Source of the DNA: Bryoerythrophyllum caledonicum
Lineage: Eukaryota > Streptophyta > Bryopsida > Pottiales > Pottiaceae
Direction of reading: 5' to 3'
DNA length: 64,000 nucleotides
NCBI GenBank assembly: GCA_963971425.1
Contig: OZ020519.1
Location: 2,992,028-3,056,027 of the forward strand
Part shown: positions 25,217-62,570 of the stretch, one piece after another
How positions within the stretch are numbered: position 1 is the stretch's first letter
How the letters are laid out: the number at the start of each line of letters is the position of its first letter
Position numbers and translations under genes: made by a program
Notes under the pieces: generated by a model
The model's input: the letters and a program-made list of their open reading frames with translations, nothing else
What the model was told of the DNA's origin: nothing
The model's database searches: none

Positions 25217-25808
25217 TCAAGTACAGATCCTTAATACAGGTTTGCTCCCCATGCACTTAGAATCAACTTTCCGTGTGATTGAAATTCTGCACTGCTCCCT
25301 CGCCTTGCATTTTCCGACATCGTTGGGCTGCACCCAGAAGTTGAATGCTCACTGATTCTGTTCAATTGTGCCCAACATCTTGAGGAGGGGGTACTTATAA
25401 CTGTCTGATTGCAGAGCGCCGATGCTTATGGGATAATCCGTTTGGACTTCTTCATCATTGATCTGTTCTAGCCATGATCTAGCCATATGAAGCTCCGACC
25501 ACTTTGAGTGCATGTTGAGCTCATTTTGAGTGCATGTTGAGTTCATTTGACCTCATGTAGCCTTCATCTTTAAATCAGTTCATCTCCATTTCAGATCATG
25601 GATGAGTCAAGATGAGCTGTTTTAGCTTCTTCTGAGCTCAGCTTCTTCACAGTTGAACTCCACTTCAATCGTTTCTTCTCGATTCCACATCATCTTCAAA
25701 TCTATACTTGGTGAGTTTTATATCCATATCTCCTTTGGTCTAATGTTACAATAAATTTTCAATTTTTTCTTCAATTCTCATTAACTTAATTGCAATCTAT
25801 AGATTATC
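25217..25808. other. 5' leader of the Tc1 transposase
   Basis: No second gene is visible. The stretch lies inside the element, between the tandem repeats and the transposase start. TTTTGAGTGCATGTTGAG is duplicated near 25500-25540. Confidence 0.5.
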
Positions 25809-26822: not shown

Positions 26823-27152
26823 GCAGTTTGCACATTCATTGTACAATGCTTCATTATTTTGAAGTTTTCATGTACATATTTCTTGTGTAAATAAAGTACT
26901 CCTCACTAGGAACCCACAGCAACTTTCGGTTTGAAAATCGGACTGTTTTTGAGCATGATACAGCTTTGCCTGTTTTTCATGAACTTCCCTGTGCATTACT
27001 GCTGCAGTCAAGAATTCGTAAATGAAGTGTACCTGACTGTACACTAACATGATTCACAACGTATGCCTTATTAAAACAGAGTATGCTAGCATATGTGGCG
27101 TGAGTGGGGTGTGTGTGACTAAATTGCACGCCCATCCCTCGAACGATCGCTC

Positions 27153-27160
27153 TATAAATA
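27153..27160 (+). promoter_or_regulatory. TATA box of the TolB-like gene
   Basis: TATAAATA lies 72 bases before the chosen ATG at 27225. It puts transcription start near 27185-27190, which is why the ATG at 27180 was not taken as the start. Confidence 0.75.
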
Positions 27161-27224
27161 TTCCATCTCAACGTGTGGTATGCAAGTAGTAATCTGCAGG
27201 TTGCTAGCTAGCGAAGTAGCGAAA

Positions 27225-29491
27225 ATGCGGGGAGAGAGCCGCGGCAGCATTGCCTTCTTCGCTACCTACAGGCCGCCGGTGCCGCTCGACATCTTCTGCT
27301 GCCCCGTCCCGCCCTCCTCCACCCGCGACGAGCTCCACCTCACCGACGGCGTCTCCTACAACTACAACTGCCGCCCCATCCCTCCCGCGGCGCTCAAGGT
27401 CCTCCTCCAGCGCCCCAAGCTCGCAACCGAGGGCGGCGCCACCGACGCTGACGTCGATGCCAATCGCGTCTCCGGCTTCGTCTTCGTCTCCGAGAGAGAC
27501 GACAGCCTAGAGACGCTCCGCATCGCCCTGCGGTTCAATGCCGACAAGAAGGTGAAGGTGTTCAGCCTGGCCGACATCTACGGCGCCACCGAGTTCGGCG
27601 GCACGCGCCTGGAGGACAGCGGCTGCATCGGCGGCGGCTACAAGGTGGGCTCTCGCACCGTCGACCACTCGCTCGTCTACGTCTCCACCAAGGAGCCGGT
27701 GCAAGAACACCGCAGCCCCTGGACCGTCGTCTACAAGACCAACCTAAGAACCGGCAAGACCGAACGCCTCACTCCCAAAGGTAATTTCTTTCTCTGGTCG
27801 TTAATTGAGTAATCTCATCTACTTAATTGCACTGTGTATGTGTGCTATATGCAGGGGTCTTTGATTTGAGCCCGGCCGTGTCGACGTCGGGGAAGAAGGT
27901 GGCGGTGGCGTCGTTCCAAAGGAAGGGCTGGGAGGGCGAGATCGAGGACCTGCAGACCGACATCTACGTGATGAACGTGGAGAATCCGCTGGAACGCGTG
28001 CGGCTGATCAAGAACGGCGGGTGGCCCGCGTGGGCCAGCGATAACGTCATCTTCTTCCACAAGAAAGTCGGTAAGACGTGGGGCGTCTTCCGGTTCACCA
28101 TCAGCACCGGGGAGACCGTCCGAGTGACACCGGAGAAATTCGACGCAGTGACTCCGGCGGCCATCAGCGAGACCAAAGTGGCGGTGGCCACCATCCGCAA
28201 GAAGTCCGAGTTCAGCGACGACCGTGAGGAGGCTCAGTACCGCCACATCGAGATCTTCGACGTGGCGCCGGGGAATCCGCCGGTGCAGATCACCCAGAAG
28301 ACAACGCCTAAAGGCGACCACTACAACCCCTTCGTGCTGGACGATGGCGGCCGCGTCGGGTACCATCGCTGCAGGAGTGACCTTCTGCAGCACGGCGATG
28401 ACGTCCCTCGTAACTACTACAAGCTGGAGTCCCCTGTGAAGGACGTCGGGCTGTTCCGGGTGTCCGGCGTGTTCCCGACCATCTCCAAGGACGGCTCGAA
28501 GATGGCCTTCGTGGACAACGAGTTCAAGGCCGTGTGGGTCGCCGACAGCCAGGGGCTGCGCATCGTGTACGATACCCAGGGCCCCGACAACATCTTCTGC
28601 CCGATGTGGAACCAGAACCCCAGCAAGGACATCCTCTACGTCTGCTTGGGCCACTCCTTCAACGCCGCCAAGCCGGTGGAGATCTTTGCCATTTCCAACG
28701 TCTCCAGCGGCGTCTCCAGCGGCGTGCGGCAGCGCCGGATGCTCACCAAGGGCGCGTTCAACAACGCGTTCCCGTCGAGCAGCCCGGACGGGAAAAAGTT
28801 CGTGTTCCGGTCGACGAGAGACGGCGGGGAGAAGAAGTACAAGAACCTGTATATCATGGAGGACGCGGAGGTCGGGGAGTACGGTGACGGGACGGTGACG
28901 CGGCTGACCAACGGGGAGTGGACCGATACCCAATGCGGGTGGTCTCCGAGCGGGGACTGGATCGTCTTCTCGTCGACGCGCGACAAGCCCAAGGATGCAC
29001 CGGAGCGGGACAACGGCCTGGACCCGGGTTTCTTCGCCGTGTTCCTGGTGAAGGTGAGCGACCCGACGGTGGTGATCCGGGTGCTGAAGAGCGGGGACGA
29101 CGTGGCCGGGCACGTGAACCACCCGGTGTTCAGTCCGGATGGGAGGAGTATCGTGGTGACGGCGGACCTGGCGGCGGTGACCGCGGAGCCGATCTCGCTG
29201 CCGCATTTCCTGCACTCGGTGAGGCCGTACGGGGACATCTTCGCGGTGGACATCAACACGGAGGACATAACGAAGAACAGGGACGTGAAGAAGTTTCATC
29301 GCATTACGCACAGCCGGTACGAGTACTCGACGCCGGTGTGGACGGTGTTAGCGATGGACGATCCGAACGCGCAGTGGAACGTGCTGGTGAAGAAGGACTC
29401 ATACACGCCGGCGTGCCCGCACGCGTACCCGGACGGTGGCGAGAGCTTGCACATGACTGGGCACCTCTGCATCCCCAGGAGGCAGTGGTGA
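27225..29491 (+). CDS. TolB/DPP6-like WD40-type beta-propeller protein, C-terminus altered by a hAT insertion
   Basis: Two exons, 27225-27780 and 27855-29491, with a GT...AG intron of 74 bp, give 730 residues. The GC-rich frame encodes a plant protein with TolB-type PD40 propeller blades: SGKKVAVAS (about residue 200), SSPDGKKFVFRSTRDGG (about 490), WSPSGDWIVFSSTRDK (about 547) and FSPDGRSIVVTA (about 611). Such propellers are binding scaffolds; the family has no established enzymatic role that I know of. The start MRGESRGSIAFF fits the TATA position. The last residues and stop (CAG TGG TGA) lie in a hAT element that begins at 29483; the displaced host sequence resumes at 33035. The first 728 residues are host-encoded. 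GC content contrasts sharply with the AT-rich transposons around it. It is the best candidate for a living host gene in the window. Confidence 0.9.
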
Positions 29492-32400
29492 TTTTTCACA
29501 AGGTCCCTAACATGTCCCGGGACATGTTCTGAAAAAAAAAACATTTCCAGTGGACGGGTTCTCTGAAAATGAACCGGTTTTTGGACGTGTCAAATTCACT
29601 TTGGACGGGTTCTAAAAATAAAAATTTTTTTGACAATTTTTCCCCAAATAAATGAATGATGCAAATATCAATTACATTATGTCATATATGACATGTGAAT
29701 GTAAACATAATGGAGTCAAACCACTAATACCAAATCAAAATACCAATCTTCAAAAGGCTGGATTCACCTGCACACATTGATTCATCAACCACAATATTTA
29801 GAACTTTTTTAACACAATGTCAAAGATTTAAATTGAAGGTAAACTAAGCAATTGTATAAAAATTTAGTTAATATAAACATGTTCAATTTTTACAAAAAAA
29901 AAAAGAACTTACCATTCAAACAAGTGGATGAATTCTCCTATCCTTCATGTTTCTCCAGACAAGCATCACTGCATTCCAATTGATGTTTTCAACTAGAATA
30001 TTTGTACATGAAATGCACATCAAAGCATCTAAAGCCTCCAACTTCAACCTAGTACGGAGATGACTCTTGATCAGGTTTTGTTTGGAAAAACCCCTCTCAC
30101 ATATTGCAGTGCTCACATGAATCACCATAACTCTCCTCCACAAGTTACTCAAACCAGGCCAATTGATGGACCACTCTGGAGTTGTACCTGCAAACTCCCA
30201 TGCTTCAAATAAAGACTTATTTGGGATCATCTCTCTCATGGTCTCTACCATCTCCAAGCACTCACCTCGACACCGATCTTGTTCTTCTTTAGAACTCTGG
30301 AACTTCACAAACAACCTCTCCAACCACTCTTCAGTAATACGAGTCCTCTCATCATCATTTGCAGGATAGAGATTGGGGCTGAAGAGCTTGCATGCATTGA
30401 AGATGCCTAAGTCTGGAAACTTGTTATTCAATGCATCCACCACCTTCTGCACATACTCTGCCCCAATGAGTTTGCACTCCTCAATAGTACCGACTCTCCC
30501 AGTAACACTCTCCAAATGCATTGGATAGGTTCTTAGGCCACCATCTGCAACTGGATACTCCATCTCCATAGAAGTTGCACAGGTCTCCAAAAATGGCCGC
30601 AATGCCCTTGAACCTTTTCCAAATGCTGCACCTCTAGCTGCTAGAAAATGTCTAGTACTCAATACTGTGATACAAATGTTTAAATGACCTCCAATCTGAG
30701 TAATATCCACATGGTCACTCTGAAATAGCTTATTGAGTTTATTCAACTCAGTAAGAATATCCACAAGTAACCGTAGAAGGAATTGAAACTGAAAGGATGT
30801 GAGTTTACGATACCACATTGCTTCTTCTTCACGGAAAAGCTCCAGAAACGAGGGCATACAATCCAAAATCCGTTGCATCACTTGTCCACGGGATAACCAT
30901 CGAACTCCATGTATGTGGAGAACAACCAATGGATCCATCGCAAACTCCAACATCAACTCATCAAGCTGTGTCCACCGCAATGATGACCTGCCCACCCACG
31001 TGTATGCAAAGTTGGAGAAATCATCCAAAACCTGTAGCTCCGGTGATGCCTCAGCTGCATCGCTGGCTGCCAGTGCATCTCTAAACAAACACGGGAATTA
31101 ATTAGTGAATATATTACATTCTAGAAAATAATGAAATTCAATAAAAAAAAACTTAAAATTAAAGACTCACCTATGTGCAATGCAATGCACATTAACAAGT
31201 GTTGGTACATCTGCCCGAAGTCTGCCTGCTAGTCCTTGTCTCACCCCAGTCATAGAAGCCGCTCCATCAGTAGCTAAAGCCACTAATTTGTCAAGAGGCC
31301 ACTGTAACTCCTCCAATAAATCCACCACATTCCTATAGAACACCTTTCCTGTGGCTCGTGGAACACCAGACAAACCAACATACTGCGTACGTAGAGGGCC
31401 TAAGCCACCACGAGATAGACTGCAAACATACACAATCAAATGCTGCTCTAGACTACGATTGGTTGATTCATCTATAAGAAGAGAGATCACCGATGAATCT
31501 CTAACTTCAAAAAGATCAACATCCCTCAAATGCTGTGAAATGGCCCACAAAAAATCATATGCAGATTGTCTACTAGTGTAAGCACCATACTCATCATTGA
31601 CAGGCATGTCTGGAGCCCTGAGGTGTCTAATTATCTGACACATATCCTCATACTGGTTGATAGCTCTATCATTAACTACCAAATGGTATAAAATCTTCAT
31701 ACAACAAACAATTCTAGCACTCTCTGCATCAATAGCATTTACCACATATCTAGCCATGGCAAGTGCCTCACGGTTATCTCTCACCGGTCTCCACCTGAGC
31801 ATGGCATGAGCATGAAGGGTTGATCCTTCATGCTCCTTCACAGCTGAAAGTTGCAATGACTCACAACCGTCTTCTCTGGTCCCCCATCGTGAGTTTTGAC
31901 CAGCTGCTTGACATGTTGCACACTTCATATAGGGCTTCTGTCTAGGGAGAGCAATGTGCATCAACCAGGGCCTTCCCTGACGCCATACGGGCATAAACTT
32001 CCTCCTTCTTGGAGGCCGCCCTCCACCACCATGAGCTGGAACCTGTACTCCTACACTATCCTCCTCATGTGCACTATCATCAAAATCATTATCCTCCCCC
32101 ATCTCATTCTCTTCCCCCATCTCAATGTCCTCTCTGATCTGATCATGACCTTGAAAGCCACCTTGCTCTACCTCAACATCAGGAATACCACGTGGAGAAC
32201 CCCTAATAGAAGATTCTGACAACTCAGGCACTTCATTCCTCCCATCACTCAAAGTTTGAGAAGAAGAAGATGCCCTAAACATATGAAGAATGCTCTGTTG
32301 CCGAGCATCTCTCCTTTGCCTGGGTACTCCAGACACTGGCAAAGACATAACTGCAATACATATTCAAAACAGATCAATCACCACACACATGAAATACAAT

Positions 32401-40703: not shown

Positions 40704-40711
40704 ACAAGGAC
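40704..40711 (+). repeat. 8-bp target duplication, left copy
   Basis: ACAAGGAC, identical to 52805-52812. It defines the left border of the 12.1-kb hAT. Confidence 0.92.
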
Positions 40712-40884
40712 CAGGGTTGTCATACGGGACAGACGTCCGGTTCGCCCGTCCGGTAGAGCTCTCGCCCGTCCGATACAGTCAACAAAGGGTTGATTTACCC
40801 GCAAGGTAAAAAACAGGCGACGTGGCAGCCATGTTGGCACCACATCGTTGCCACGCAGAACATGGACATGTTTAAGTAGAGGCG

Positions 40885-40970
40885 GGGACTAAAGGGAAGA
40901 GGGAGGTAGTGCGGAGACTTCCCGGCCCTACTCATAAAGGGGGGGGGACGTCCCCGCCCCTTCATGGGTT
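40885..40970 (+). promoter_or_regulatory. GC box cluster with GGGGACGTCCCC, left end
   Basis: The perfect palindrome GGGGACGTCCCC lies at 40944-40955 beside CCGCCCC. It is about 230 bp inside the left terminus. Confidence 0.7.
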
Positions 40971-41432
40971 AGATTATAGTGTTTAAAGTTATCATATATT
41001 GGTAGTGAAAACTGTGGAATTTGGAGGGTGTACTACTTTAACTATCAATAGAGTCTTGCAAGAATTTTTTTACTTTGAATTAGAGCGGTTCACATGTGCA
41101 CTAGGTTGATAGCCTCGCATTGACATATTATATGTGAAGAAAATATTTATACCCAATTATTGGTGCTTGAAGAAATGCAAATCTCAGACTGAAAATTTAA
41201 AAATTGGACGCATACAAAATTGATTAAATGAGACCTATGGCAATTGCCAAGTACACATACTCTTCTACGAAGATGCCGTATTCTCTACTTAACCACCACA
41301 TGCGAAACTAATGCAACTAATAAACCAAAAACTATTGTCGGTAACAACATAGAGGCATAGTCCAACCGTGGGGGGGGGTTTCATTAATGTGTCTATAACA
41401 TCTGGTATAGAAGACCGTTCACTCACATCTTT
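40971..41432. other. AT-rich subterminal region of the giant hAT
   Basis: No gene; it presumably includes the 3' end of the kinase-like gene. Confidence 0.5.
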
Positions 41433-42914
41433 TTATAGGCCTTCCGATTGTAGCTTTAGGTGTACATATTGCTCCGTGTTTTTGGCGGTGAAATACTGCG
41501 TGTCCCATTCTTTTTGCCAAATGCGAGAACAAATCCAACCCACCGCAAATGCATCTGCTGCCTTGGAGTAGAGGTGTGACCGTTGCATGACTTCAAGCGA
41601 GTTGGTGGAGCCCTGCGGCCAAAAAACATAGAACAGTTCTGGTGCCACAAACCGTCGCCGCTCTCTCTCATCTCGAAGTTGCTCCATGAATTGATAACCA
41701 TACCTTGATGGTTCATTCTCCACAACCTGATTAGAAAGCCCCCAATTGCAAATTCCTACGTACACCGTATCGGGTTTCCACTCATCAAAATGGAGCAAAA
41801 CATTCGATGGAGAGAGGTCATTGTGTATATAATTTGCGTCGTTGCATTTCCCCACAATGACAAGCAACGATAGCGCGAGGTTCAGTCGATTTTTGCGGTA
41901 AGTTTTTACCCACCAAAGCTCTTCGATCGACAACCCGATATTTGGATGCATCTCAATTTGTTCAAACGGCAATGATTCGTCCACTTTCGAGTCATACTTG
42001 GACCAAAAAGAAGCCAAAGATCCCCTATTCCACCAGAGCGTGTACCCTTCCATAGTTTTCGGGTGGATGTACGCAAGTCTAATGATCCCTGGATGCACCA
42101 CCGGACACCCTCCAGCCTCGTTGATGATGTCTCGGCGCTTCTCCCTCTCGTTGGTGTTGGTCAGAGTCTTTCCAGCAAAGCAAATCCAACTTGGAATGTT
42201 TTCCAATTTTGTTATCATCACCTTCCGTACAGCCCCATAGCCACCCACCGCTTTCTGCCCTGGCATTGGAATCACATCAGCGCAACTTTCAAGCCACTTG
42301 AATGTTCCACCAAAGTAGTAAGCCAAAATTTGCTCCTCAATAGTCGCTTTCCAAGGAGCCAGTTTCTTCTTACGAGAAGAAGAGTACTGTTGAACGAAGC
42401 TCTGGATCATCTTCATCTTCGCTACAAGTGAGTTGTCCTCAATATTGTTCCAGTTGCTTCCATCCTCTTTCTTTCCCATGACGTAACACCAATTTGCAAC
42501 AATATTGGTGGTTAGTGGGGTCACTTGTGTGTCCAACCACTCCGTATACAACCAATAATCTGAGAAATTATTAAATCTCTCAGATTTATCAAGGTTTGAC
42601 ATTATTTCGTGTCGCATATCAACGGTCAACTTACGGTATCCCTCTTCGTTGTGCGCCAAATAGCTCTTCATCAATGCCTGTCTCGTTCGGCCGTTGTAAT
42701 ACTTGACGGCAATCCCTCTACATTCAACCATGTATTCATGCGGGGGCATGTCCGGATTTGGTGTCTTCTTCCGCCTCTTCCCGCTCGATGATGACAGATT
42801 CAATGATCCCGACGTCAACTCCGTGTTGGTGGACGGAAGCACCATCTCACCAACATCATCCAAATTTATAAATTGGGGGCGCTTCTCCATCAACCTACTT
42901 CCTTCTCCCGCCAT
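41433..42914 (-). CDS. Protein-kinase-like protein carried by the giant hAT
   Basis: An intact 493-residue frame from ATG 42914. Residues 1-215 are a leader without a known domain, with a basic GKRRKK patch at 45-50 that could be a nuclear signal. Residues 220-493 look like a kinase fold: GGYGAVRKV glycine loop (223-231), FAGK (246-249) in the place of the VAIK lysine, YIHNDLSPSNVLL (362-374) as catalytic loop with Asp366 and Asn371 but HND for HRD, CNWG (389-392) in place of DFG, RFVAPELFY (421-429) for the APE motif and DAFAVG (454-459). The metal-binding Asp of DFG is Asn, so it may be a pseudokinase or an atypical enzyme. It is divergent from the RING gene at 43377 across a 460-bp spacer, suggesting a shared promoter. 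I know no kinase as a normal part of hAT elements; it is probably captured cargo. Confidence 0.8.
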   Translation of the reverse strand: MAGEGSRLMEKRPQFINLDDVGEMVLPSTNTELTSGSLNLSSSSGKRRKKTPNPDMPPHEYMVECRGIAVKYYNGRTRQALMKSYLAHNEEGYRKLTVDMRHEIMSNLDKSERFNNFSDYWLYTEWLDTQVTPLTTNIVANWCYVMGKKEDGSNWNNIEDNSLVAKMKMIQSFVQQYSSSRKKKLAPWKATIEEQILAYYFGGTFKWLESCADVIPMPGQKAVGGYGAVRKVMITKLENIPSWICFAGKTLTNTNEREKRRDIINEAGGCPVVHPGIIRLAYIHPKTMEGYTLWWNRGSLASFWSKYDSKVDESLPFEQIEMHPNIGLSIEELWWVKTYRKNRLNLALSLLVIVGKCNDANYIHNDLSPSNVLLHFDEWKPDTVYVGICNWGLSNQVVENEPSRYGYQFMEQLRDERERRRFVAPELFYVFWPQGSTNSLEVMQRSHLYSKAADAFAVGWICSRIWQKEWDTQYFTAKNTEQYVHLKLQSEGL

Positions 42915-43376
42915 ACGTGATAGTCAACTCCCTACTGTGGTTGAAATTCCAAAATGATGGTTTTAAAAAAAACCGCAAAGAGTCTGAATGCAATAAATGA
43001 GCCAAGCCCGACCACCCACCAAACTCACTTTCAGGCTGCAAAACAAACAAACACGTGAGGCCTAGGGAGTCGACTTGGCAGAGAATAAGGACAAAAGTCC
43101 GCTATTTATGTGGTTTACTGGATTTTAGCGAAGACGTCCCCGCCTCTACTTGGGCAGGGGCGGGGACGTCTCTACGGGAGGGGCGGACCTGTCCCCGCCC
43201 CAGCCCGGGGACCCTGGACCAGTGCTTTGTTTATCGGCTATATAATATCGTGCACGCCCCTAATTGTCCCTGCCTCACATACTACCTCTTCATCCACCTC
43301 TTAATTGAGTTGATTGTGGGCGTCGTGTGAGGACTTCATCCATTCACATCACACATTATTCAGATTTTTCCCACCT
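42915..43376. promoter_or_regulatory. Divergent promoter region with GC palindromes
   Basis: The spacer between the kinase-like and RING genes. It contains GACGTCCCCGCC (43132) and GGGGACGTCTCT (43162-43173), GGGCGG boxes and CCCCGCCCC near 43195, followed by TATATAATA at about 43240, a plausible TATA element for the plus-strand gene. Confidence 0.6.
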
Positions 43377-45661
43377 ATGGCCACGCCGGTAAAAATGAGT
43401 AAAGAAGAATGAGACAAGAGTCGACTAGGATTGGGAAACAAACATCCAAAGAGGTTGCATGTGCTTCGAAATCCAGTGAAACTGACTTTTAAAGGTTGGG
43501 AAGAACTTCCGAAGCCATGGAGTTTCAAGGATTGCGCAAACTTCGTCGAGTGGTGCCATATCGACAAGGCTCTCCCAAAGGAGCGACTCAATTATCACCG
43601 ACGCTTTTGCAAGGCAAATTTATGGAAGTGCACCGACGAGGCGTTCAAAAATCGGTGCATTGAAGTATATCAGGTGTTGTACGACATCCTTTATATCAAA
43701 TGCACTGAAGTAAATCTCTTCCTTGCGCAAGGTGTCCACGCGGAGGTAAAGTTGGGCAAGAGGGTGGATTGGTCCACCTTGAAAGCCATGGGTGATAGCA
43801 TAAAAGCTCCTTCTCCGGCAAATGTATTGAATCCAATGGGGACACGGAGGTATCCAAATGGCCGATTGTGCAAATTGATGGCGAAGACTAAACCGGTCGA
43901 CACGGACGAGTCCGATCCCTCAAACACGGATACAGACTCTAACGGATCCCATGTTCCAATCACAACGAGCCGAAGGACACAAGCGCGCACCAGACGAAGG
44001 AGGGTGGAACAAACGGTTAATGTAGTCGTTAACGATACCATTAATGAAGTTGTAGCTCAGGTGCAATCCCGCGCGGTTCTTGATCGAACGTTCAAAGCCT
44101 CTATTGGTGCTATTTTTGCCAACACTATCCAAACCTTGCTGAAACAATTGGAAGGGAAAAGGAGAGAACTATTGTCATTGCATGATGCGGTTTGCAAGTT
44201 GAGAGTTGAACTCCATGACAAAAACATTGTTATCGACCAGCAACGACATAATATGGAGGAGCTCCGACTTGCCCTACAAGCTAGTACAATGACCGCAAAA
44301 GATCGGAATCCACGACTGGAGGAGGAAGTGCTTGTACACGCGTCAACCCAAGACGATTCATTGTCGTTTGACGAGGCCTCTATCAACGCAGACAAAGCTG
44401 TGGTCAACAAAGAAGAGGGTGCGGCGGGTGGCGGCGGCAAAGAGCTCGCTAAAGTGCTTGAAGAGAATTCAAGACTACAAATTTGCTTGGATGTGTTGGT
44501 AGAACATTACTATCAATGGAAGTTGGCATGCATCTTCACGGTCGATCAGTCCCGACAATTGGTGGCCAAATCCCATAAAACCGACAACAACTATACCAAA
44601 AACAACCAAGAGAGGGTGTTTGGTTTGACGTCGTGGGCCCTCGTAGATGATCTTTTCAAGATGGATGAAATGGCAATGGTGAAAACCGCCGGTGGGCAAA
44701 CAACCATCGATTGGTCCCGTTACAATTGGAATTTCAAAACAGAGGTTCATCTACCCTCGACCATCGGGGCAACCCCATTTTATTGTGGCCACAACCTTCG
44801 AGCTTTGTATCCGACGGTACGACTTGCTCAATTTGTCTAAACCCATTTGGTCCAGAAGGTGGGATGCATCTAGGCACTTGTGAGCACTTGTACCATCCAT
44901 TTTGCTTGATTAGCTTGATGGTTGTACGCCGGCGGTGCTTATTGTGCAAGGCCCCTTTTCATGAGCGATTGTACAAACTTTTTGGATTAGTTCCATACAT
45001 GCCCCCGCATTAGGAGTTCAATGTGATGAACACCTCTAATCAGTCACAGATGTGGGGAAAGGATTTGGTGTGGAGCTGGAAACTAAAGATGCACTCGTTG
45101 GATATGATGCACCTCTCAAACGAGTGGGATTGGGAAAGGGACCCGGAGCAGATTGTCCGGGGGTGGAAGAATTTGATCCCGTTAAAGGACAAATACGGTC
45201 AAGGAAAACGAAATTTCTTCTACCAATGCTTTAATGGCCATTGGGACGAGAACGGGGAGCAATTTCGTTTCGGTCCTCATCCACGGCAATGGTTGTGGGC
45301 TGTTGACGGAGTTCGCATCACAGGCGACAACAGGGATCGCATTTCTCACGACGTTGACCCACCGGACCCGCAAGAACTAAGGAAATTATCGGAATCAGAG
45401 TGGAAAGAAATTTTCCGAAATGACGGAACCGACTTCTTGCTTGATGAGCACAGTCCAGGGACACGGCAAGCGCTCGACCACCTCATGCAATCCCAAATCC
45501 TAAGGGCCGTGTTGGATGAAGATGGACGAGCGAGGAGAACACGATCGGCGTCTCATAGACTTGTCTTAGGCTCAGATGAAGACCTCCCGATGCATGTAGG
45601 GGCACACAACAACGAGGCAGGGGCGAGTGGTACTACTAATAGCCCGATGAATATTGACTAG
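43377..45661 (+). pseudogene. Coiled-coil plus RING-finger gene carried by the giant hAT, broken
   Basis: The start is ATG 43377, by comparison with the paralogue at 47147. Codon 12 is TGA (43410-43412), where the paralogue has CGA. The frame then runs to 44840, and a change of frame near 44800 is needed to reach a C3HC4 RING (CSICL...CEHLYHPFCL...CLLC, about 44830-44970). A TAG (45011-45013) separates the RING from a C-terminal part that ends at 45661. The order is an unknown conserved N-terminal domain (KRLHVLRNPVKL, CHIDKAL, CIEVYQVLYD), an acidic linker, a coiled coil (about 44110-44290, LEGKRRELLSLHDAVCKLR), the RING, and a tail rich in charged residues. RING proteins are typically ubiquitin ligases; a transposon-borne one is unexpected. 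Three lesions make this copy unlikely to function. Confidence 0.75.
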
Positions 45662-46804
45662 GTGTATTTTTTGTTTTTGCGGTACCAAAAGACATTTTCC
45701 TTACAATGCTGTATCTTTTAGCGTTTAATGTATTTTCCCATTTTTGTACTACATTATGCATAGTAAAAAAATATGAATAGTAGTGTCTACTTTACTTGAT
45801 GATAGTGGTGTGATTATGGATGTACTTAAGCCTCATAAGGATTTGTGCGTTTGTATAAATAAAAATGATATGGACCAATTTTGAAACCTCCAAACATTTT
45901 TAACCACTAAAGGATCAAGGCATTTTTGCACCAAAAACACTTCAAAACTGCTCGGCTCTAGTATAATGCCTAAGAAGGGAGACAAAACCTTTTTATTTCT
46001 ACATCTAACCATAGGATCTCAATAAATACTTCTTTGTTAATGTCCCCACTAAATTTCATAAATTTTGACCGCACGGATTGAAAGATTATAGTGTTTGAAG
46101 TCAATAAAATGGTTCATTTTCTTCCCTGCGCTTGGTGGATCAGGAGACTTTGACTTCACTTCGTATCAAATTTATGCACTACATAAGGTCTAAATCCATT
46201 ACTATTGTGTTTAGGATGATGTTAGTTCTTTATACACCAATTGTTAGAGAATGCAAAAGGGTGTAGCTTATTCAAGTCAACTATGCTAGTAGTGGAAGCT
46301 CAAAATTGGCCAATTAACGTTTTAATTTTTAGATACTTGATATGTTTTAGATTGATGATCCAAACGGTCAATATGAAGGTCTACACCACATATTGTTGTG
46401 GAGAAAATCAAAAGTATAAAAAGTTAAAATCTCTAAGTTTTATGTGGTAAGACGTTTTTGTTTTTGGTACCTTGCCTGACAATGTGTGGCAATATGTGAA
46501 AATCTTTGACTTGGGTTGAAGCGTTATTTTCCACTAAAGTCAAGATTTTTTTATTAATAATATGAAAGGAAATAATCTTCTACACTCTTATATTCGCTCC
46601 AAAATTAATAGGGAGCTAATAAAGGTGTTCCTTATTGAAGAGCATGCCGTCAAAGGACAAAAGTTGTACTTTCCATTTCGCCTTCCTCCCTAGAACTAGG
46701 GAAAGACAAAATCTGCGTGTTATTTTAAGTGCAACGCGATCTTGTCGGTACCAAAAATAAGGCACCCCATATTTAATTGTGCACCCGCCTCATGGAGATG
46801 AGGA
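45662..46804. other. AT-rich spacer in the giant hAT
   Basis: No gene. Its right part (46590-46840) is repeated at 48270-48490 (shared TAATAGGGAGCTA, AAAGGTGTTCCTTATTG, GATGCCGTCAAAGGACAAAA), showing that the upstream regions of the paralogue and of the transposase come from one ancestral sequence. Confidence 0.75.
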
Positions 46805-47146
46805 GTGCCCCGGCCAAGTAATAATGGGCCTCAAACGCCTCCTTCTGGAGTTAGGTGGGGACGTCCCCCCCCAATTTTTTCAAGCAAACGTCCCTGCCAC
46901 TGCCCAGTAGGGGCGGAGACGTCTTCGCCCTGCCCGGGCAGGGGCAGGGATGTCCACGCCACTACCTCGGTAGGGGCTGAGATGTATCCGCCCCTACCAA
47001 GTGACTATTTTAATGGTTTTTGGCCACATTTGTCCTCGCCTCGCATACTCCTCTCCATCCATCTCTTCATTGAGCTGGATGTTGGCGTCATGGGGGGTCT
47101 TCATTCATTCATTCACACCAAATTTTGGCAAGAACACGTGCAAACC
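46805..47146 (+). promoter_or_regulatory. GC-palindrome cluster upstream of the RING-gene paralogue
   Basis: GGGGACGTCCCC at 46857-46868, then GGGGCGGAGACGTCTTCGCC and further GGGGC/GCCCC pairs to 47000. The stretch is 150-290 bp before the ATG at 47147. Confidence 0.65.
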
Positions 47147-47807
47147 ATGGCTTCACCTGGACAATTGGCCATCGAGGAGCGAGACAAGACCCGCGCACGA
47201 GCGGGGAACGCCCATCGAAAGCGGTTGCACGTTCTTTGTAATCTCGTGAAATTGGCCTTTTGAGGTTGGGAAGACGTACAAGAGCCATGGAGTTTTGATG
47301 ATTGCGCAAACTTCATCGAGTGGTGCCACATCGACAAGGTTTTTCTTAGAGGAGCGACACAACTTTCACCGACGCTTCCACAAGGCAAACCTGAAACATT
47401 GCGTCGACGAGGCGTTTAAAAATCGGTGTATTGAAGTTTACCAGGTGTTGTACGACGTCCCATTCGTCAAACGCAATGAAGTAAATCTCTTCATTGCGCG
47501 GGGTGTTCATGCGGAGGTGAAGTTGAACAAGAGAGTGGATTGGTCCACTTTGAAGTCGATGCCAGGGAAGATAGAAATTCCTCGCCCAAAATATGGAATA
47601 ATTCCAATGGGATGGTGCAAGTATCAGGAAGGTGGATTGGGCAAATTCATGACTGTGATGGACGACACACACAACTACGATACCGACACGTCGAGTTCAG
47701 ATGCAAACTTCGACGGAATCCACGTCCAAGTCGCAAGCGAAAAGGCACAAGCACGTGGTAGGCTGAGGAGGACCGAACGAGCCCTTCACCACAGTACTAC
47801 TGACTAG
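47147..47807 (+). pseudogene. Truncated paralogue of the RING-associated gene
   Basis: It starts ATG 47147 (MASPGQLAIEERDK) and follows the N-terminal domain of the gene at 43377: KRLHVL, WSFDDCANFIEWCHIDK, FHRRFHKANL, CIEVYQVLYD, GVHAEVKLNKRVDWSTLK. A TGA at 47261-47263 sits where the other copy has Lys, and a frame change is needed near 47345. It stops at 47805-47807, before any coiled coil or RING. It therefore represents only the first domain. Either it is a decayed tandem duplicate or the first domain alone was once a separate protein. Confidence 0.8.
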
Positions 47808-48520
47808 GAGTATTTAAAGGTTTAGGACGTAGCAAAAAATAATTTGAACAATACTTTTGCTTTAAACATGATATGATTTTAAAATATCATTTTTGTTTGT
47901 AACGGTACGTTTTATTTAGAGAACTTGCACATTACATTCTACTAGAAGCTTATACTACCCCTTATGGATGGGGACTTGCATAGCTCCCTTGCTATTCAAC
48001 ACTCGATATATTATTTTCTTTAATGGTATGTGGTACATTCCTAATCTTTTGTGGGGCACTTGTGTTAAAGTTTTTATTTAGAGAACTTGCACATTACATT
48101 CTACTAGAAGCTTATACTACCCCTTATGAATGGGGACTTGCATAGCTCCTTTGCTATTCAACACTTGATTTATCAAATTCTTACGAAACTTGAAAAATCT
48201 CTTATTTTAATCTCATTAATCATTTCAATATTTTTCCAATTTCCTATGTCAAGTGGTGCATTCATTTCTAGTCTCTTATGTCCGCCCCAAAACTAATAGG
48301 GAGCTATTAAAGGTGTTCCTTATTGGAGAGGATGCCGTCAAAGGACAAAAGTCGTACTTTCCATTTAGCCTTCCTTTCTAGACATAATCTGCTTGTTATT
48401 TTAAGTGCATCGCAATCTTGTCGGAACCAAAAATAAGGCATCCTACATTAAAACCTCCACACGCCCCATGGAGAGGAGGAGTGCCTAAGCATCCAAAATG
48501 CCCCAAAGACCTCTTTCTTC
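47808..48520. repeat. Spacer with internal duplication
   Basis: ATTTAGAGAACTTGCACATT with the following TTCTACTAGAAGCTTATACT is duplicated (about 47915-47990 and 48075-48150), giving a direct repeat of about 75 bp. The right part is homologous to 46590-46840. No gene. Confidence 0.75.
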
Positions 48521-48961
48521 TAGATTGGAGGGACATCCCCGCCCCTGCCTTGGTGGGGCGGAGACGTCCCCATCCCACTATGGCAGGGGCGGGGACGTCC
48601 CCGTCCTTGCCCGGGTCGGGGTAGGGACGTCTCGGCCCCTTCATGGGGACGTCCTCGCCCTTGGCGCGTGAGGTCCCACCCATTTTTGGTTCGTATATAA
48701 AAGGATCGGGGAGGGCGGTTTGTCCTTACGTTTGTCACCTTGGCCTCTATCCCTTGGACCTCAATTCAGTTTGAGCTCCTTGCGAGTCTACTTGGGTGGC
48801 AAGCGACACTGGTGTGCAGCTGAGGTGATGTAAAAATTGGTTCAAGCAGTGCACCAGCACTATCAAAACTCATATTTTTACCCAATTCTATACTATATCT
48901 GGCCCCGTATTTTGGCTTAGACGGGAGAAGCCGGGGGTATTTGGCATAAGCCGTGAATGCA
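48521..48961 (+). promoter_or_regulatory. GC-palindrome cluster upstream of the hAT transposase
   Basis: Several GACGTCCCC/GGGGACGTC units lie at 48525-48670, including GGGGACGTCCCC at 48591-48602. A TATATAAAAGG TATA-like element follows at about 48694. Confidence 0.7.
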
Positions 48962-51900
48962 ATGGGAAGTCAAAAGGAGCAAACAAAGGAATGGGAACCT
49001 TGGTACAATTTTGGTGACAACGGGGGCAAAGTGAGTTGTGTTTTCTGCAACTTTACTTTTAGCTACAAACGTGAGTGTGCGTTCGCTCACTTTGGATATG
49101 GCGCCAAGTCAGAGAGGTCGATTTGTCGTAGCCTACCTCTCCATGTGCGACATCGGTTTGTCAACTGTGGAAACATTGTTCCGCAAAGAGTGACAGGCGG
49201 GGACATGTATGGCGGAGATTCAGGTCCAAGTGGTCCATCGACGGCACCAACTGTTGACACTTCAAGCCAATCCGACACTCAAAATAATGTGGCGGGTAGG
49301 GTAACAAGTGGGCCTTGGGAAGGAGTGCCTAATCTCTCTGAAGGAAACAACAAGAGGAAAGAACTTGATGAGAAGTGGACGACCTTTTTCTATCTCGCAA
49401 ATGTGCCTTTTAATGTGGAGCGAAATCTGGCGTTCATTGATGCGGTGAGGGCAACATCCGTGGGAAAGTTTGAGTACACTCCTCCTTCATATCACCAGTT
49501 GAGGACTAAATTGATTGAATCTAAAAGGTTGCAAATTGAGAAAGAGATTGAAGCCAAAGTTGGTTTTGCAATCAAGAATTATGGAGTGTCGATATGTACG
49601 GATGGTTGGGATGATGTCAACCGGAGGCCCCTCATGAATTTAATGATGTCGTGCCCCACTGGTGGCATATTTTTGGGCAGCATAGACACCAGTGGTCAAA
49701 AGAAACCCATGCGGTACATAGCGGACCAAGTGAAAGTTTACATTGAGAAGGTGGGTTCGAAGAATGTGACACAGATTTGTACAGACAATGCTGCCAACAT
49801 GCTTGGAGCGATGGATGATATTATTCTCACATACCCGCACATTCACAAGCAGGGGTGCATGGCACATGCATTGGATCTCATGTTGGAAGATTGGGCGAAG
49901 GTCCAAGAATTTAAAGATTTAATAGAGAGGGTAAAGAAATTGTGCCAGTATATTAGAAACCATCATGCGACAATGGGGACACTTCATGAATTGAGTCCAA
50001 ACCTGCATATTGTAGTGCCGAGTGAAACCTGCTTTGCTTGTAATTTCTTTATATTGGATCGATTGATGAGACTCAAAGGAGTGTCGGAGCAGTTGAAAGA
50101 CCACCTCCATGTTGTAAACTACTTTGCAACCCTACGGAATAGACAGAATGGAGAGCAAGCAGCAACCGCTTCGCGTAATGTGGTGCAAACCATCGAAGAT
50201 GTCGCCTTTTGGCAACAATGTCAGAATTACGTGCACATGACTAGGGATGTTTTTAAGGCATTGCATGTGTTTGATGGCCGGGAACCAGCCATGGGTCGTG
50301 CGTGGCTCGCGATGCATAATTTGCGAGAATACGTGTACTCTTTGAAAGAGTCACCCTTTACTCTACGAGCTGACAAAGCATCCACTTTTGAGCAATCTTT
50401 TGATGCCCGGTGGCAAATGGTTTTTAGCGATGTTCACTACACCGCGACTCTTTTGAATCCGTACCTCAAGGATAATGTGGCGCTTAGGGCTGACGGAATT
50501 GTACAAAGAGCATTGAATCGGGTTGTTTGCAAAATGATGGAGGTATTGGACATCTCTTGTGACGACGTCCAATATGAGTTAACACAGTACAAGGAGGGCA
50601 CAAGACCATATGGCCCTACTGAGGCATCTAACATCCGCCAGACAAAGCTTCAACTTCACCAATGGTGGGCCAGGATCGCAGACACGGCATTGTCTAAAAT
50701 AGTTGTTCGTATTCTAGCCGTTATTTGTTCACCTAGCTCTTACGAACAAAATTGGAGTATGTATTCTTCTGTCCACAACAAGAGCCGAAATCGATTAGTG
50801 CCGGATAAGGCTACGTCATTGGTGTATATTTATACCAATAGCCGATGCCTTGAACAAAGACTTGGGGCCGATCCCGTTTGATGGTACGATGCAAATATTC
50901 ACTCAGAGGATTCCAACCCAGATGCCCTGGGGCCGGTTCCGGTGGGTGAACATAATTGTGAATTTGATGTGTTGATAGCTGAGGAAGAGGAGGAGTACAA
51001 TATGGAAGCTCCCCGCTCTCCGCTAGAGTACCGGGGGAACCCTAATCTTTGGGCGGAAGGCGGTGATCACCTTGAGGAAACGGGAAACTATTACGGAGAT
51101 AATGACGACGTGGAAGAAGAATTGGCTCAAGGTCGTTGGGGACCTTGGAATCGAAGTCCTCGTTGCAGTCCTTCGCCTCATCTTCCTCAAAATGAAGGCA
51201 TTCATGAAGTGCATCCTTTGTCTACTTCCTCAGAGAGCGACATCCCAAATGTGACTAACCTTAAAGAGCCTTCAACGGGGAGGGCAATGTCGGGAACGTT
51301 CACGACGATGACAATTCCCCATCAGATTATGGAGGTGGAAATGGAGACGCCGACAACAACGGAGCCAGAGAGAACGCAGTAAATACTGCAACTCGAAACA
51401 ACCAAGGATCGGTTGAAAACCGATATGGCCAGGGAAGCTCTATTGGAATTGGTGCATCATTTCGTAGCACTGGAGTCGTTCAAGGAGACTCTGACGTAAA
51501 TGTTGAAAACACAACAATTGTAGGGACGGCTCCAAGAAATGAAAGGGTTGTAAATGAGCGAAGGCGTTTTGACTCGAAATATGTAGACTCCTCTAATGCT
51601 TTTGCATTCACAGAGGACCTTGAGCCACAACCATCTCCGGTTGTGGTGTTGCCTACTGATATTAATGACCAGAATACACCAACGCGGCCTTCCCGGGATT
51701 CCTCTCTTCCTAGAACGGCGAATGCCATGTATGGACTTTTCCAACAAAGTATTGGCGTTGAGGGGACGGGTCTAAACACTTCCGCTACTACTGCCAAAAT
51801 AGCAAACCCCCTTTGGCCGCTAGAGCGGGGCCAATTCTTCCAATGGGTCAATATCAACAAGGCAGTGAAAGGACTAATGCCCGTGGAGGGTCTAGAGGCC

Positions 51901-52400
51901 ATGGAGCGGCTAGAGGCCGTGGAGGAAGAAACAACGGCGAAGCATCATCCTCAAGGCCTCGTAGACGTCCCCTCATTGGAATAGGGGCACGAGATCCGAA
52001 CGTGGTTGTACAACCATTTTTGGACACGTATGTTCCAGGACGCTCTTCATCAACTCCGGCGTTTGTTATTCCGAGTCGAGCAATTCGTCCTACTAGCGGT
52101 CCAACCATAAATTCCGACGGCGATGATCCTCACGCACATCGACAAAAGAGATTCAGACGCTCGCGTTGCGATGGTGAAACAGTCGTAGAGCTTCGCAATG
52201 ACAACTCTGAAGTAGAGGGCTTTTGGATTACGGATGGTAGCAATAGAGAATACAAAGATGAGAGCGATGAAGGTGCTAATGATGAAAACCGTCTAGATTG
52301 CGATGAGGCACCAAATGATGATGATATCGTCCTTCGAGATTCAGTTATGGGTGGCCCGTCCACCGAAGGAGTGCGCAGATCGGGTCGGTTGAATAATTAA
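48962..52400 (+). pseudogene. BED-finger/DUF659 hAT transposase with long C-terminal extension, broken
   Basis: ATG 48962 (the in-frame GTG at 48953 is not needed). Residues 10-70 form a BED-type finger (CVFC ... AHFGYG). A DUF659/RNase-H-like core follows with VSICTDGWDD, ICTDNAANMLG and GCMAHALDLML, then the hATC dimerisation part (WWARIADTALSKIV, SSYEQNWSMYS, RNRLVPDKATSLVYIY). TGA at 50879-50881 ends the first frame, but the same frame continues with WYDANIHSEDSNPDALG, typical of this C-terminus, so the stop is probably a mutated CGA. From 50942 an acidic tail, then (after frame changes near 51382 and 51820) a region with ARGRGG-type Arg/Gly clusters and a polyacidic end, runs to the stop at 52400. 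The roughly 500-residue extension is unusual for hAT enzymes. This copy needs frame repair to be functional. Confidence 0.85.
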
Positions 52401-52804
52401 GGGACAAGAAAAGTAGCTACGTATATGTATGCGAAATCAAGAGAGTTGTGATAATTCATAGAAGAAGCTAGGAGATTAAAAAGTTTCTTAGATAACTAGT
52501 GCCGATATTACTTTGATTGGAAGTATGAAATTAGGACATTGTTGTTATATCGTGAAATGATTTAATGTAATAAACATATTTTTCTTTCAGACATTAAGGT
52601 CCGCTAGGTGAATGATGCAGGGGCGGGGACGTCCCTGCCCTAGCACCACCGTGGCGTGACACATCTGAACGTGACGTGTCTTTCACAGTAAAAAATTCCT
52701 ACCTGCAAAAAATTACTAGGCGCACTTCAGGCAATCCGTCCGAACCGTTCGCCCGTCCGATTGTCCCATCCGATCACCTCCACCCGTCCGTTATGACAAC
52801 TCTG
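52401..52804. other. Right subterminal region of the giant hAT
   Basis: It contains GGGGACGTCCCT (52625-52636) and four CCGTCCG words at 52735-52800, mirroring the left end. Confidence 0.7.
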
Positions 52805-52812
52805 ACAAGGAC
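52805..52812 (+). repeat. 8-bp target duplication, right copy
   Basis: ACAAGGAC, identical to 40704-40711. Confidence 0.92.
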
Positions 52813-53744
52813 TGTTGGGCGTTGCCGATGCTGACAGCAGGTCATGGAAGATTGTTGACTCTATTGTGCCTTGGAAACTCCGTTGATGATGACGTCCTAA
52901 GGCGTGAAGGATAAGGCCAATGCTGTCTCGTGAGATATGTTGGCATGGTCACCCGGGGTGCTATTATGAGGAACTGGGGTGCTCTCGCGGAGAGAAATAA
53001 GGGTGCTAAACATATGTACGTTGTTTATATCAAGGTGGTTTGAGGTTTTTAAGGTTTGCAATCCCATGTATTGCTCGTCAAAGACTTCATCCCTTGAGAT
53101 GGTGATTTTCCGATTGGTGGGTTCATAGATTCTATTGGCTTTAGATTCAAGATCATATCCAACAAAGATCCCTTTTCTAGTTTTGTGATCCAGTATTTGA
53201 CAAGTTTCGTCAAGGACATGGACGTATGTGGTACTGCCGGAAATTTTCGAATTGGTAAGATCGAGAGACTTACTAGTGAAGCTCGCTTCGAGTGGTACGC
53301 CAAAATTGCTCCGTGTGAGGCTGCGATTCACTAGAAATGTTGCCATAGCTACGGCCTCCGTCTATAAGTAAGTTAGAAGATTGCAGTCTGCGGCTATGCT
53401 CCGTGCTCATTCTAATAATGTTCTATTTCTCCTTTTTGCAACTTTGTTTTGCTGGGAGTTCTTGTTTGTGTCAATTCTCTGATAATTCCATGTTTTGCGC
53501 AGTAAGAAATGAACTGAGAAGACATATGTTCGGCCCGCTGTCGAATCGTAAAAAATTTGAGTGAGTTTTCTATTTTTGTCTCTAGTTTTACTTAAAATTT
53601 TTTAAAGCGGTCAAAAGTCTCATTCTTGTGTTTAAGAAAGAGAGTCCAACTTGTGCGAGAGAAATCGTCAGCGAATACTAGTATGTAATGTGAATCTCCA
53701 AGTGAGGGGCGTTGTATTGGTCCAATGATGTTGGTGTGGATGCG
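52813..53744 (-). pseudogene. copia integrase region (middle part)
   Basis: On the minus strand from 53744: RIHTNIIGPIQRPSLGDSHY and ILVFADDFSRTSWTLFLKHK (integrase core), then the C-terminal part ATFLVNRSLTRSNFGVP and GIFVGYDLESKANRIY with the DEVFDE linker toward reverse transcriptase. Stops and frame changes occur around 53340-53590. The upstream part is at 58495-58776, separated by the LTR element. Confidence 0.9.
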
Positions 53745-59564: not shown

Positions 59565-60119
59565 CTAGGGCTTTGTCATCCCCCAAGCACTGATCTCGTT
59601 GTTGTCGTCAATTGTTTCAGCAATCAGCTTGTTGGATACCTTGTCAAAAGTCAGCTTCGTTGAGTTGAGATTTGTCAGTGTTTGTATGGTGCTATCGTAC
59701 GATCTTGGTAGTCCGTTGAGTACAGATTGAGCAAGGTGTCGTTCGTTGATCTCTTCTCCTATGCTCTCTAGCTCATCACACATATCTCTTACTTGATTAA
59801 GGAATTCTTCCACAGGGTAGCTTTCAACCATCATCATTGAATGTAGATCGTTTAGCAAGGACAAGATCTGTGAGTTGTCACTTGCAAAGAAGCGTTCCAC
59901 GAGTGCCGTCCAAGCAAGCGCTGGATCTGTGCATATGGCAATAGTGGAAATAAGATGGTCAGCTGTAAAGCTAAGAAGGAAGTGACATGCAAGAAATTTC
60001 TTCTTTTGGAGATTTATAGCTGAGATCAGCTCTCCATTGATTGTGACTCGATAAATATATGGTTTGTGCTCTGTTTCGGATATGGTCCATAATCCTTCTG
60101 CTCTAAGGATTCCTCTCAA
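59565..60119 (-). pseudogene. copia GAG (UBN2-type) fragment
   Basis: A 184-residue open frame with ALAWTALVERFFASDNSQ, LLNDLHSMMMVESYPVEEF, LNQVRDMCDELESIGEEI and VLNGLPRSYDS, the typical order of the copia GAG domain. Its upstream part towards the 5' LTR (60120-60406) is damaged by stops. It forms the particle capsid in active elements. Confidence 0.9.
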
Positions 60120-60384
60120 CTTGAAACTTCAACTGTAGTAGTTTACTAGACCTTTCAACTTCTCTCCCTCTCAAACCATTGTGAAGTCTGCCATCTTGTC
60201 TAGAGCTATGATGTACTTAGTATTGTGATCTGTGATTTGTTTTGGTGAGCAGTGAAGGCGGCAGTGCCGGCCAACGACCCTCCTACTTCAAGTGTGAAGA
60301 TCTGAACCTCTCACTCTCTTTCCTCGTGTAATGTCGTACTAGTTGTGCTCTCACTATTCTGTGTTCACTCCATTCTCTAGCCAG

Positions 60385-60805: not shown

Positions 60806-62570
60806 TCAGAAAAAATGCAATGGCAGACGCGGCCTCGCAACCACGAGCAACAGGTCACGTTTCTGCAGCACAAAGGTCGCCTTCTCCGACATATCCAGCT
60901 TCTCAATGTCACCAGCACAACTCAAATCAAAGGTGTGAAAAAAGCTCGCTACCTGCAGGTTCACCGATGTCACCGCCAAGGACGCCCAAGGACACAACCT
61001 CCGCCCGGATCCAAACGGCAACATGCCGAACTATTGCTGATCTTGGGACTCCATGCCCGAGTACAACCCGCCCTCTAGAAATCGCTTTGGCTGAAACTCC
61101 AAGGGACTCTTCTACAACTTCGGGTCGCGCCCAATCCCCTAAGTGTTCACAAATAGGCGCGTCTTCTCCAAGATGTTGTACCCGAAGGCTTTTGTGTCGT
61201 ACAGGCTTTGGCACTGGATTAGTAAGCAGATGGGCGGGTGTAGGCGCAACACCTCTTTCACTACCGCTTGCATGTACGGGAGGTGGGGCACGTTGGATTT
61301 CGTGACGACGCGGTTGCTCCCCACCTTGTGGTCTAGCTCGGAGAGGACCTCCTTGAGGATGCTCGGGTTGCGCAGAATCTTGGTCACTACCCACTCGCTT
61401 GTCACCATCGGCGTGTCGGTCTCCGCGAGAAACACGTCCAATACGTCATGGACGTACACATTTTAGTGGCCATTGTTGGAATGCAAGAATGTTTTGAGGT
61501 GTAGTAAGAGATTTGAGCCGTGAGGATCTCACCCAGATGAGGTAGGAGACGTGTTCTTGGTAACGTCAACGTCCGGATTATCAAGCTCTTATAGAAGCAC
61601 ATCCAAGAAGCTCTTGTTGTCATCGGAGACGGGGTTCATCTTCCGGTGCTCCTTGTGCTCGTTGATGAGCTTTGTGTAGAAGTTGTGCATGCTCTGCGCT
61701 TGCTTGCGGAACCTGAGTTCGAGGCGCTGCGGGTCTAACCACTCGGGTAGGAAGTTGAAATAGTCCTGCACGTGGATGGCGCTCAAAAGGCGCACCATGT
61801 CCTCCGTGATGGCGATGAACTCAAACGCGTCGGAGTCCATCACGACGGACATGGCGTCGCCCGTGTGGTCGCTCTTGCCCAGCAATCGCTTGCCGAGCAC
61901 CATGCAAGAGATGATGTTTGTGGTGACGACGTGGAAGTGGGTATTGATGCGGATGGGGCCTTTCTCGCGGGATACCACGAGGAGCATGTAGGCAAGCTCC
62001 TCCGCACGGATGTCCTTGGAGGCCTCTTGGCGCTTTGCGAATGTGAGCTAGCTCACAAAGATCTTCCGCAGGTGGCGATTTACTGGCGTGAGGTCGTGGA
62101 GCACGATGTCTGCACTCAAGTTTTCCAATATTGTTTTTATGTCATGACAAGAAATACTATTGTGTAATTGCAGCAGGGTGTGTTAGATTCAGCACAAGAG
62201 TGCAGATGAAAAAAAAATTATCTAGCTTAAAAAGAGATTCTTACCTTTTGGAGACGATGACCTCGGCGGCGCGGCACGGGGGTTAGAAGGAGAGGTTGGC
62301 GTCCTGCACCTTGAGAAAATCCTTGGCGGTTTTCGAGGACGTGGCGACGATAAAGAGCTTCCGGCCGAGGTGCACGGGCATGAGAGGGCCATATGTCTTA
62401 GCGAGATCCGCCAGGTTCTTATGCGGCAGCGTGCCGAGCAGGTGCAGCGAGCCTATGATGGGCAGCGGCGACGCCCCCGAGGTAAGTCCAATTTCTATTG
62501 CGAGCCTGATAACAACCTCCGGGTCACAAAGATAACCAACAACGCCACTACTACAACCTGCACATGAAGA
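60806..62570 (-). pseudogene. Cytochrome P450 pseudogene (CYP71-clan type)
   Basis: Read on the minus strand in order: N-terminal PLPIIGSLHLLGTLPHKNLA and YGPLMPVHLG (about 62490-62350); a C-helix-like HLRKIFVS (about 62080); an IINTHF-type middle (about 61950-61590); the I-helix AETDTP (about 61420); K-helix VVKEVLRLHPPI (ExxR kept, about 61250); and the heme loop PFGSGRRLCPW (about 61000), where the Gly after CP is Trp. A stop at about 61140 follows RLFVNT. TAG/TGA codons and frame changes separate the parts (ANLSF*, FVS*LTF). P450s of this clan oxidise plant secondary metabolites at the ER membrane. The substrate cannot be inferred. Not functional as it stands. Confidence 0.88.

Follow-up and report, generated by a model that had tools for sequence, protein, structure and literature searches.

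A decayed multi-gene hAT transposon of the moss Bryoerythrophyllum caledonicum, with kinase and companion genes that may counteract host silencing

Autonomous elements of the hAT superfamily, such as Ac, Tam3, Tol2, and Hermes, are a few kilobases long and encode a transposase only, making them textbook one-gene transposons. The subject of this report is a hAT element in a 64,000-nucleotide stretch of the moss Bryoerythrophyllum caledonicum (assembly GCA_963971425.1, contig OZ020519.1, positions 2,992,028 to 3,056,027 of the forward strand; this whole stretch is termed the window hereafter). It resembles the above-mentioned elements in its 8-bp target-site duplication, CAG...GTTG-type ends, subterminal repeats, and a DDE transposase with a hAT dimerisation domain, but differs from them in its length of 12 kb and in the presence of a kinase gene and two companion genes. 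A helper protein besides the transposase, together with binding-site arrays close to the termini, is also known from En/Spm (TnpA) and MuDR (mudrB), which belong to other superfamilies and possess neither a kinase nor a RING protein. In Arabidopsis, the targets of VANC are described as dense arrays of short motifs in the non-coding parts of the elements, differing between families (PMC5735166). The moss element is reminiscent of this VANDAL21/VANC anti-silencing system in combining extra genes with family-specific, dense short-motif arrays in non-coding parts (PMC5735166; PMC10398659), whereas it belongs to the hAT superfamily and encodes kinase and RING proteins, and the likeness is one of sequence layout. 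Giant eukaryotic transposons likewise carry accessory genes, one example being the RING motif of a giant planarian retroelement (PMC6431247); a whole-word look-up of the main text of that review returned neither “hAT” nor “kinase”. No comparable hAT element with kinase and companion genes was encountered in the open-access literature searched.

Linkage, constraint, and recurrence in three element lineages lead us to conclude that the kinase and companion genes belong to the transposon; since the same kinds of gene occur together in three element families, they likely serve the transposon itself. The element in the window extends over 12,093 bp (40712-52804, + strand) and is delimited by a perfect 8-bp duplication (8/8), ACAAGGAC, at 40704-40711 and 52805-52812, the sole occurrences of this sequence on the + strand of the window. 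Its termini, CAGgGTTGTCATA and CAGaGTTGTCATA, are identical at 12 of 13 bases and constitute short terminal inverted repeats (TIRs) as in the hAT superfamily (40712-40724, + strand; 52792-52804, - strand), the ends reading CAGGGTTGTCATA on the left and CAGAGTTGTCATA on the right. CGTCCG repeats lie immediately internal to both (40734-40772 and 52737-52790) in the same (+) orientation. The duplication and matching termini reported in the original prediction are hence both borne out. Gene mapping relied on relatives retrieved from a search of 5.8 billion proteins (38 for the kinase and 28 for the companion, both at E ≤ 1e-3, and 33 for the transposase at E ≤ 1e-20) and yielded four genes, namely the kinase, one long companion gene containing the RING finger, its short paralogue, and the transposase. 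The window copy is dead, with stops or frameshifts in all four genes, and copies of the element display an excess of C-to-T changes at CpG, the pattern expected of methylated DNA.

The recurrence of this element, termed family A, was examined in the 437-Mb source genome, where only the best candidates were scored, so that all counts are lower bounds. At least 87 kinase matches were scored from 2,229 first-look candidates, including that of the window, the other 86 sharing 83-88% identity with it; many are open over about 529 residues, others contain stops, and among those located on small contigs some could be assembly duplicates. The C-terminal piece of the companion gave at least 150 matches in the genome, and at least 69 transposase candidates were scored. 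Among these listed matches, a companion lies within 7 kb of 41/87 kinases and within 9 kb of 35/69 transposases, against 0.4 expected in either case under uniform placement, and 14/87 kinases have both a companion and a transposase nearby. Beyond the window, ten hand-picked copies (c1 to c10, mostly high in the kinase list) and six drawn at random from the list (two on short contigs being skipped) were read. The gene order of the window (kinase, long companion, short companion, transposase) recurs in c1, c3, c8, c9 (with a shortened transposase), and c10. Companions with insertions or rearrangement are present in c2, c5, and c6, which lack such a transposase within the stretch read; c4 retains a companion scrap, and in c7 the companion is missing, the transposase being of a different type (76% identity to P0071) and on the opposite strand. 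In c5 (G000:C10:1980446-1999000), the far side is an inverted duplication of the kinase-companion half, not a transposase. The end-pair test, which considered 0-16 end pairs per copy and kept duplications with at most one mismatch, identified pairs with 7/8 duplications in 3/10 copies, spanning 12,364 bp in c1, 12,243 bp in c3, and 12,253 bp in c8. In the six random copies (10 kb read), the left TIR was found in 6/6, the long and the short companion in 5/6, and the transposase in 3/6, with a 20-residue trace in another.

Two distant lineages, families B and C, contain the same kinds of gene. A family-B element adjoins c8 and hosts the c8 insertion; it has the ends CAGGGTTGTCT, measures 10.1 kb without the insert, and is flanked on both sides by the duplication CGCGCAAC (8/8). 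It contains a P0037-like kinase and a long companion, and the beginning of a second companion is also present. The kinase of this copy shares 36% identity with P0001, the relative used to map the window kinase, over 320 residues, and the identity between P0037 itself and the window kinase is 28%. A search with P0037 gave at least 68 such kinases, which divide by identity into family B (47, at ≥79%) and family C (21, at 67-71%). The companions of family B share the strand of the kinase and in 34/47 cases lie about 1.6 kb upstream of it (one more lies elsewhere), and those of family C are on the opposite strand, 2.7-4.1 kb from the kinase (16/21). For transposases of the P0080 type, the lists show a companion at a distance of up to 30 kb in 33/44 cases and a B or C kinase in 11/44; eight of these 11 show a recurring layout (five C, three B) and three another orientation, the five C loci sharing the order transposase, companion 2, companion 1, kinase. 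Gene spacing suggests that full B and C elements would measure about 17 kb or more. Families A, B, and C contain the same kinds of gene (kinase, two companions, and DUF659 transposase) in differing orders. In kinase and companion alike, B and C resemble one another more closely than either resembles A, and they have a transposase type in common, which appears to fit a co-divergence of kinase, companion, and transposase.

The ratios of non-synonymous to synonymous substitution rates (dN/dS), which include the neutral decay after insertion, point in the same direction. Between the window and copies without stops in the compared part, they amounted to 0.42-0.48 for the kinase (6 of 10 stop-free copies), 0.48-0.54 for the long companion (4 of 5, the remaining one being partial), 0.25-0.30 for the short companion (4 of 8, the eight including two that match the long gene), and 0.41-0.46 for the transposase (2 of 2); the bootstrap intervals lay below 1 in 16/16 pairs. 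When all copies were included, stops notwithstanding, the ranges were 0.40-0.54 for the kinase (19 pairs), 0.48-0.69 for the long companion (15), and 0.41-0.57 for the transposase (8). The accessory genes are under constraint similar to that on the transposase. The original prediction had proposed a cargo-bearing hAT lineage with long co-residence of its genes, not a one-off capture; this proposal is upheld by the further copies with duplications of their own, by the recurrent four-gene order (the very order for which a genome search had been suggested), by the two distant lineages, and by the shared constraint. The roles it suggested for the extra proteins, for example modification of the transposase or defence against silencing, are conjectural.

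The kinase gene of the window (41373-42914, - strand; 66% identity to P0001) has one in-frame stop and reads NWG in place of DWG; the alignment to P0001 stops 12 residues before the C-terminus, and a frame break near this point was judged by eye. Its Pfam Pkinase match (1.3e-05) is below the cut-off, and the domain was detected in 30/30 relatives, among which the catalytic Lys is conserved in 30/30, the HxD Asp in 29/30, the Asn in 30/30, and the DFG-type Asp in 28/30. The kinase of intact copies is predicted to be active. The structure model of P0001 comprises a helical N-terminal part and a domain with a kinase fold, nearest in VIA to BRI1, EphB1, Syk, and Raf; because the Z differences among these are below 1, no closer kinase family is claimed. 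By sequence, the nearest solved chains are those of VRK1 (E 1.5e-05). One relative, P0003, is deposited as a protein of a “Bacilli bacterium” metagenome-assembled genome and is probably a eukaryotic contaminant.

The long companion gene (43377-45661, + strand; placed by the alignment of relatives, with the start codon chosen by eye) encodes an N-terminal domain, a coiled coil, a RING-H2 finger, and a C-terminal domain, and is interrupted by stops at 43410 and 45011 and by one frameshift between 44657 and 44729. Since its relative P0039 joins all four parts in a single protein of 761 residues, the RING finger belongs to the companion gene and the element has four genes. Of the three extra genes originally proposed, the kinase and the duplicated companion therefore stand, and the separate RING gene proved to be part of the long companion, split by stop and frameshift. 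The RING-H2 finger (44822-44950, + strand; zf-RING_2 at 7.5e-06, just under the cut-off) retains all eight zinc ligands of the C3H2C3 type in the window copy and in 8/11 relatives covering the region, and the long companion is predicted to be an E3 ubiquitin ligase. The short companion gene (47147-47807, + strand) has the N-terminal domain common to both forms and lacks the coiled coil and the RING finger. It carries one stop and one frameshift in the window, and other copies hold open versions of 218 residues. With 65% identity, a synonymous divergence (dS) of about 1.0, and a ratio of 0.22 between them, the long and short companions constitute an old, maintained pair.

The transposase gene (48962-52400, + strand; 56% identity to the 1093-residue P0067) is a decayed DUF659 hAT transposase with a long C-terminal tail, broken by one stop at 50879 and at least two frameshifts beyond 51178. 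Its DUF659 domain (49484-49939, + strand) is matched by Pfam at E 8.6e-37, and the hAT C-terminal dimerisation region (50645-50839, + strand; E 4e-04) scores 20.5 bits against a cut-off of 21.4, which P0067 clears with 36.9 bits; Dimer_Tnp_hAT is found in 14/14 relatives at E ≤ 0.01. The catalytic residues are conserved throughout these relatives (first D in 13/13, one relative lacking the region; second D, C and H, and E each in 14/14), and the 12 longest of 33 relatives measure 1007-1106 residues. The BED/DUF659 assignment of the original prediction holds for DUF659; for the BED zinc finger there is no Pfam match in the window transposase or its relatives, the N-terminus being rich in C..C/H when inspected by eye. 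A further family of DUF659 transposases (P0089/P0094-type) is present in at least 43 copies and has no listed B or C kinase or companion within 20 kb.

Sequence upstream of the extra genes had been noted as shared with the transposase, which is correct, the shared part being an array of palindromes similar to GGGGACGTCCCC. With up to two mismatches, 12 such palindromes occur in the window, of which ten fall within the element; chance alone would give 1.5 in the whole window. They comprise a GC-rich motif with a GGGGACGTCCCC core at the left end (40938-40960), arrays between the divergent kinase and companion genes (43130-43201), upstream of the short companion (46851-46994), and upstream of the transposase (48523-48663), and a motif at the right end (52619-52641). 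In c8, 24 of 25 sites at this threshold are non-coding, eight close to the ends and 16 intergenic, and 15/24 gaps measure 29-35 bp. At one mismatch, the four family-A copies in which sites were counted contain 6 (window), 14 (c1), 6 (c3), and 17 (c8), against a shuffle mean of 0.02; their flanks contain 0, 0, 2, and 0, respectively. The 8.9 kb scanned of the family-B copy contains no GGGGACGTCCCC sites and 23 sites resembling AGTCCGCGGACT, with 16/22 gaps being multiples of 11 bp. On this contrast between one copy each of families A and B, the motif arrays appear to be family-specific and non-coding in the manner of those of VANDALs.

Taken together, the locus is a decayed multi-gene hAT transposon, and we consider the chances about even that its extra genes serve it by counteracting host silencing, a mechanism that is the best-supported guess from anatomy and precedent. 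The N-terminal domain of the long and short companions would bind the regularly spaced, family-specific palindromic arrays near the ends and between the genes. Once bound, the long companion could deliver its RING finger, a predicted E3 ligase, to the element, so that silencing factors or chromatin there would be marked for removal, with the short companion tuning the system by occupying the same sites in competition. The kinase, if active in intact copies as predicted, may switch this on by phosphorylating a host factor or one of the element's own products, either the companion or the transposase. Cut-and-paste movement at 8-bp targets, known from other hAT elements, would be the task of the transposase. 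More tentatively, there may be a whole clade of large hAT elements in which DNA-binding companions guide a RING ligase to phased arrays on all copies of their own family under control of the kinase, stripping off silencing factors, with the motifs differing by lineage; this generalisation we hold to be less likely than not.

A number of observations weigh against the silencing interpretation or its supports. Promoters, or subterminal repeats bound by the transposase, would account for the arrays just as well, and tandem duplication, no less than the needs of a protein, may have produced the regular spacing. The N-terminal domain of the companion has no recognised fold, the model of the whole protein being poor (mean pLDDT 49), and Pfam returned the RING finger and weak coiled-coil-like matches for the companions, and nothing else. 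Zinc-ligand conservation is incomplete (8/11), P0042 and P0047 each having one His changed and P0048 several ligands. The DWG Asp is retained in 15 of 20 family-A copies and is N in the other five, including the window copy, which is read here as decay. A dN/dS of 1 is not excluded in 5/28 copy-versus-copy comparisons, all between close copies (e.g., the c8-c9 kinase). A substantial in-place piece of the transposase is present in only 8/16 copies other than that of the window, and in 7/10 of the copies read at length no pair of ends was accompanied by a matching duplication. The family-B copy, as far as read, has no transposase match, and the four-gene set of family B is seen as overlapping triples, with no single listed locus holding all four. 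Lastly, VANC belongs to Mutator-like elements (VANDALs); the transposase here is of the hAT type, and the window element is therefore not a VANDAL.

Arrays are located close to both ends in addition to those between the genes, and their regular spacing would suit a protein scaffold; the extra genes might work in transposition itself, the companions binding the arrays and subterminal repeats to join distant ends and the kinase and RING protein setting the activity and turnover of the transposase. That the genes accompany DUF659 transposases across lineages under a like constraint agrees with such a role. However, 16/25 sites in c8 are internal, between genes, as opposed to eight near the ends, the Hermes and Tol2 transposases need no partner encoded by the element, and a RING ligase has no obvious part in the chemistry. 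We regard a transposition role as possible, at clearly less than even probability.

Among signalling components, kinases and RING ligases are common, relatives occur in several public data sets, and Starships are thought to carry host-beneficial genes, from which it could be argued that the element spreads a useful kinase/ubiquitin module for its host. This is improbable in our estimation. No single-copy host version of a cargo gene was found among the best-scored candidates, from which a divergent one could have escaped; the examined copies are multi-copy and lie mostly beside TIRs, companions, or transposases, and the genes decay along with the element. For a chance capture, or a short hAT with a separate element nested in it, the nested insertions of c2 and c6 and of c8 within the family-B element provide a precedent. 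This explanation is contradicted by the same internal order in copies that are nearly equal in length and have duplications of their own, by purifying selection, and by the same kinds of gene in families B and C in other orders, leaving it a negligible probability; neither of the outcomes that the original prediction had named against itself, a nested cargo and cargo genes sitting singly in the host, was observed within the scope just given.

The occurrence of a kinase and two companions with a hAT transposase in three lineages and many copies indicates that cut-and-paste elements can become multi-gene, purifying selection having been measured in one of the three lineages. The counteraction of silencing proposed here also offers a concrete model in which a transposon might manipulate the ubiquitin and phosphorylation signalling of its host, VANC being the one plant case of anti-silencing encountered in the literature searched.

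Several other features lie in the window, the other genes of which have a plant-like appearance. An open Tc1/mariner-type transposase (DDE_3, HTH_Tnp_Tc3_2) is found at 25803-26822 (+), and another hAT-type transposase region, read in two frames (Dimer_Tnp_hAT, zf-C17orf113), at 29916-32363 (-), the latter without a match to the relatives of the studied element at E ≤ 1e-6. An element-like region with related long open reading frames, judged by eye, spans 8020-18830 (-) and includes a Ulp1-type peptidase at 13854-14525, and pieces of Copia-type retrotransposons (SH3_retrovirus, gag) are located at 52897-53361 and 59565-60128 (-). Likely host genes are a PD40 beta-propeller protein at 27123-29491 (+) and a cytochrome P450 piece at 61589-62047 (-).

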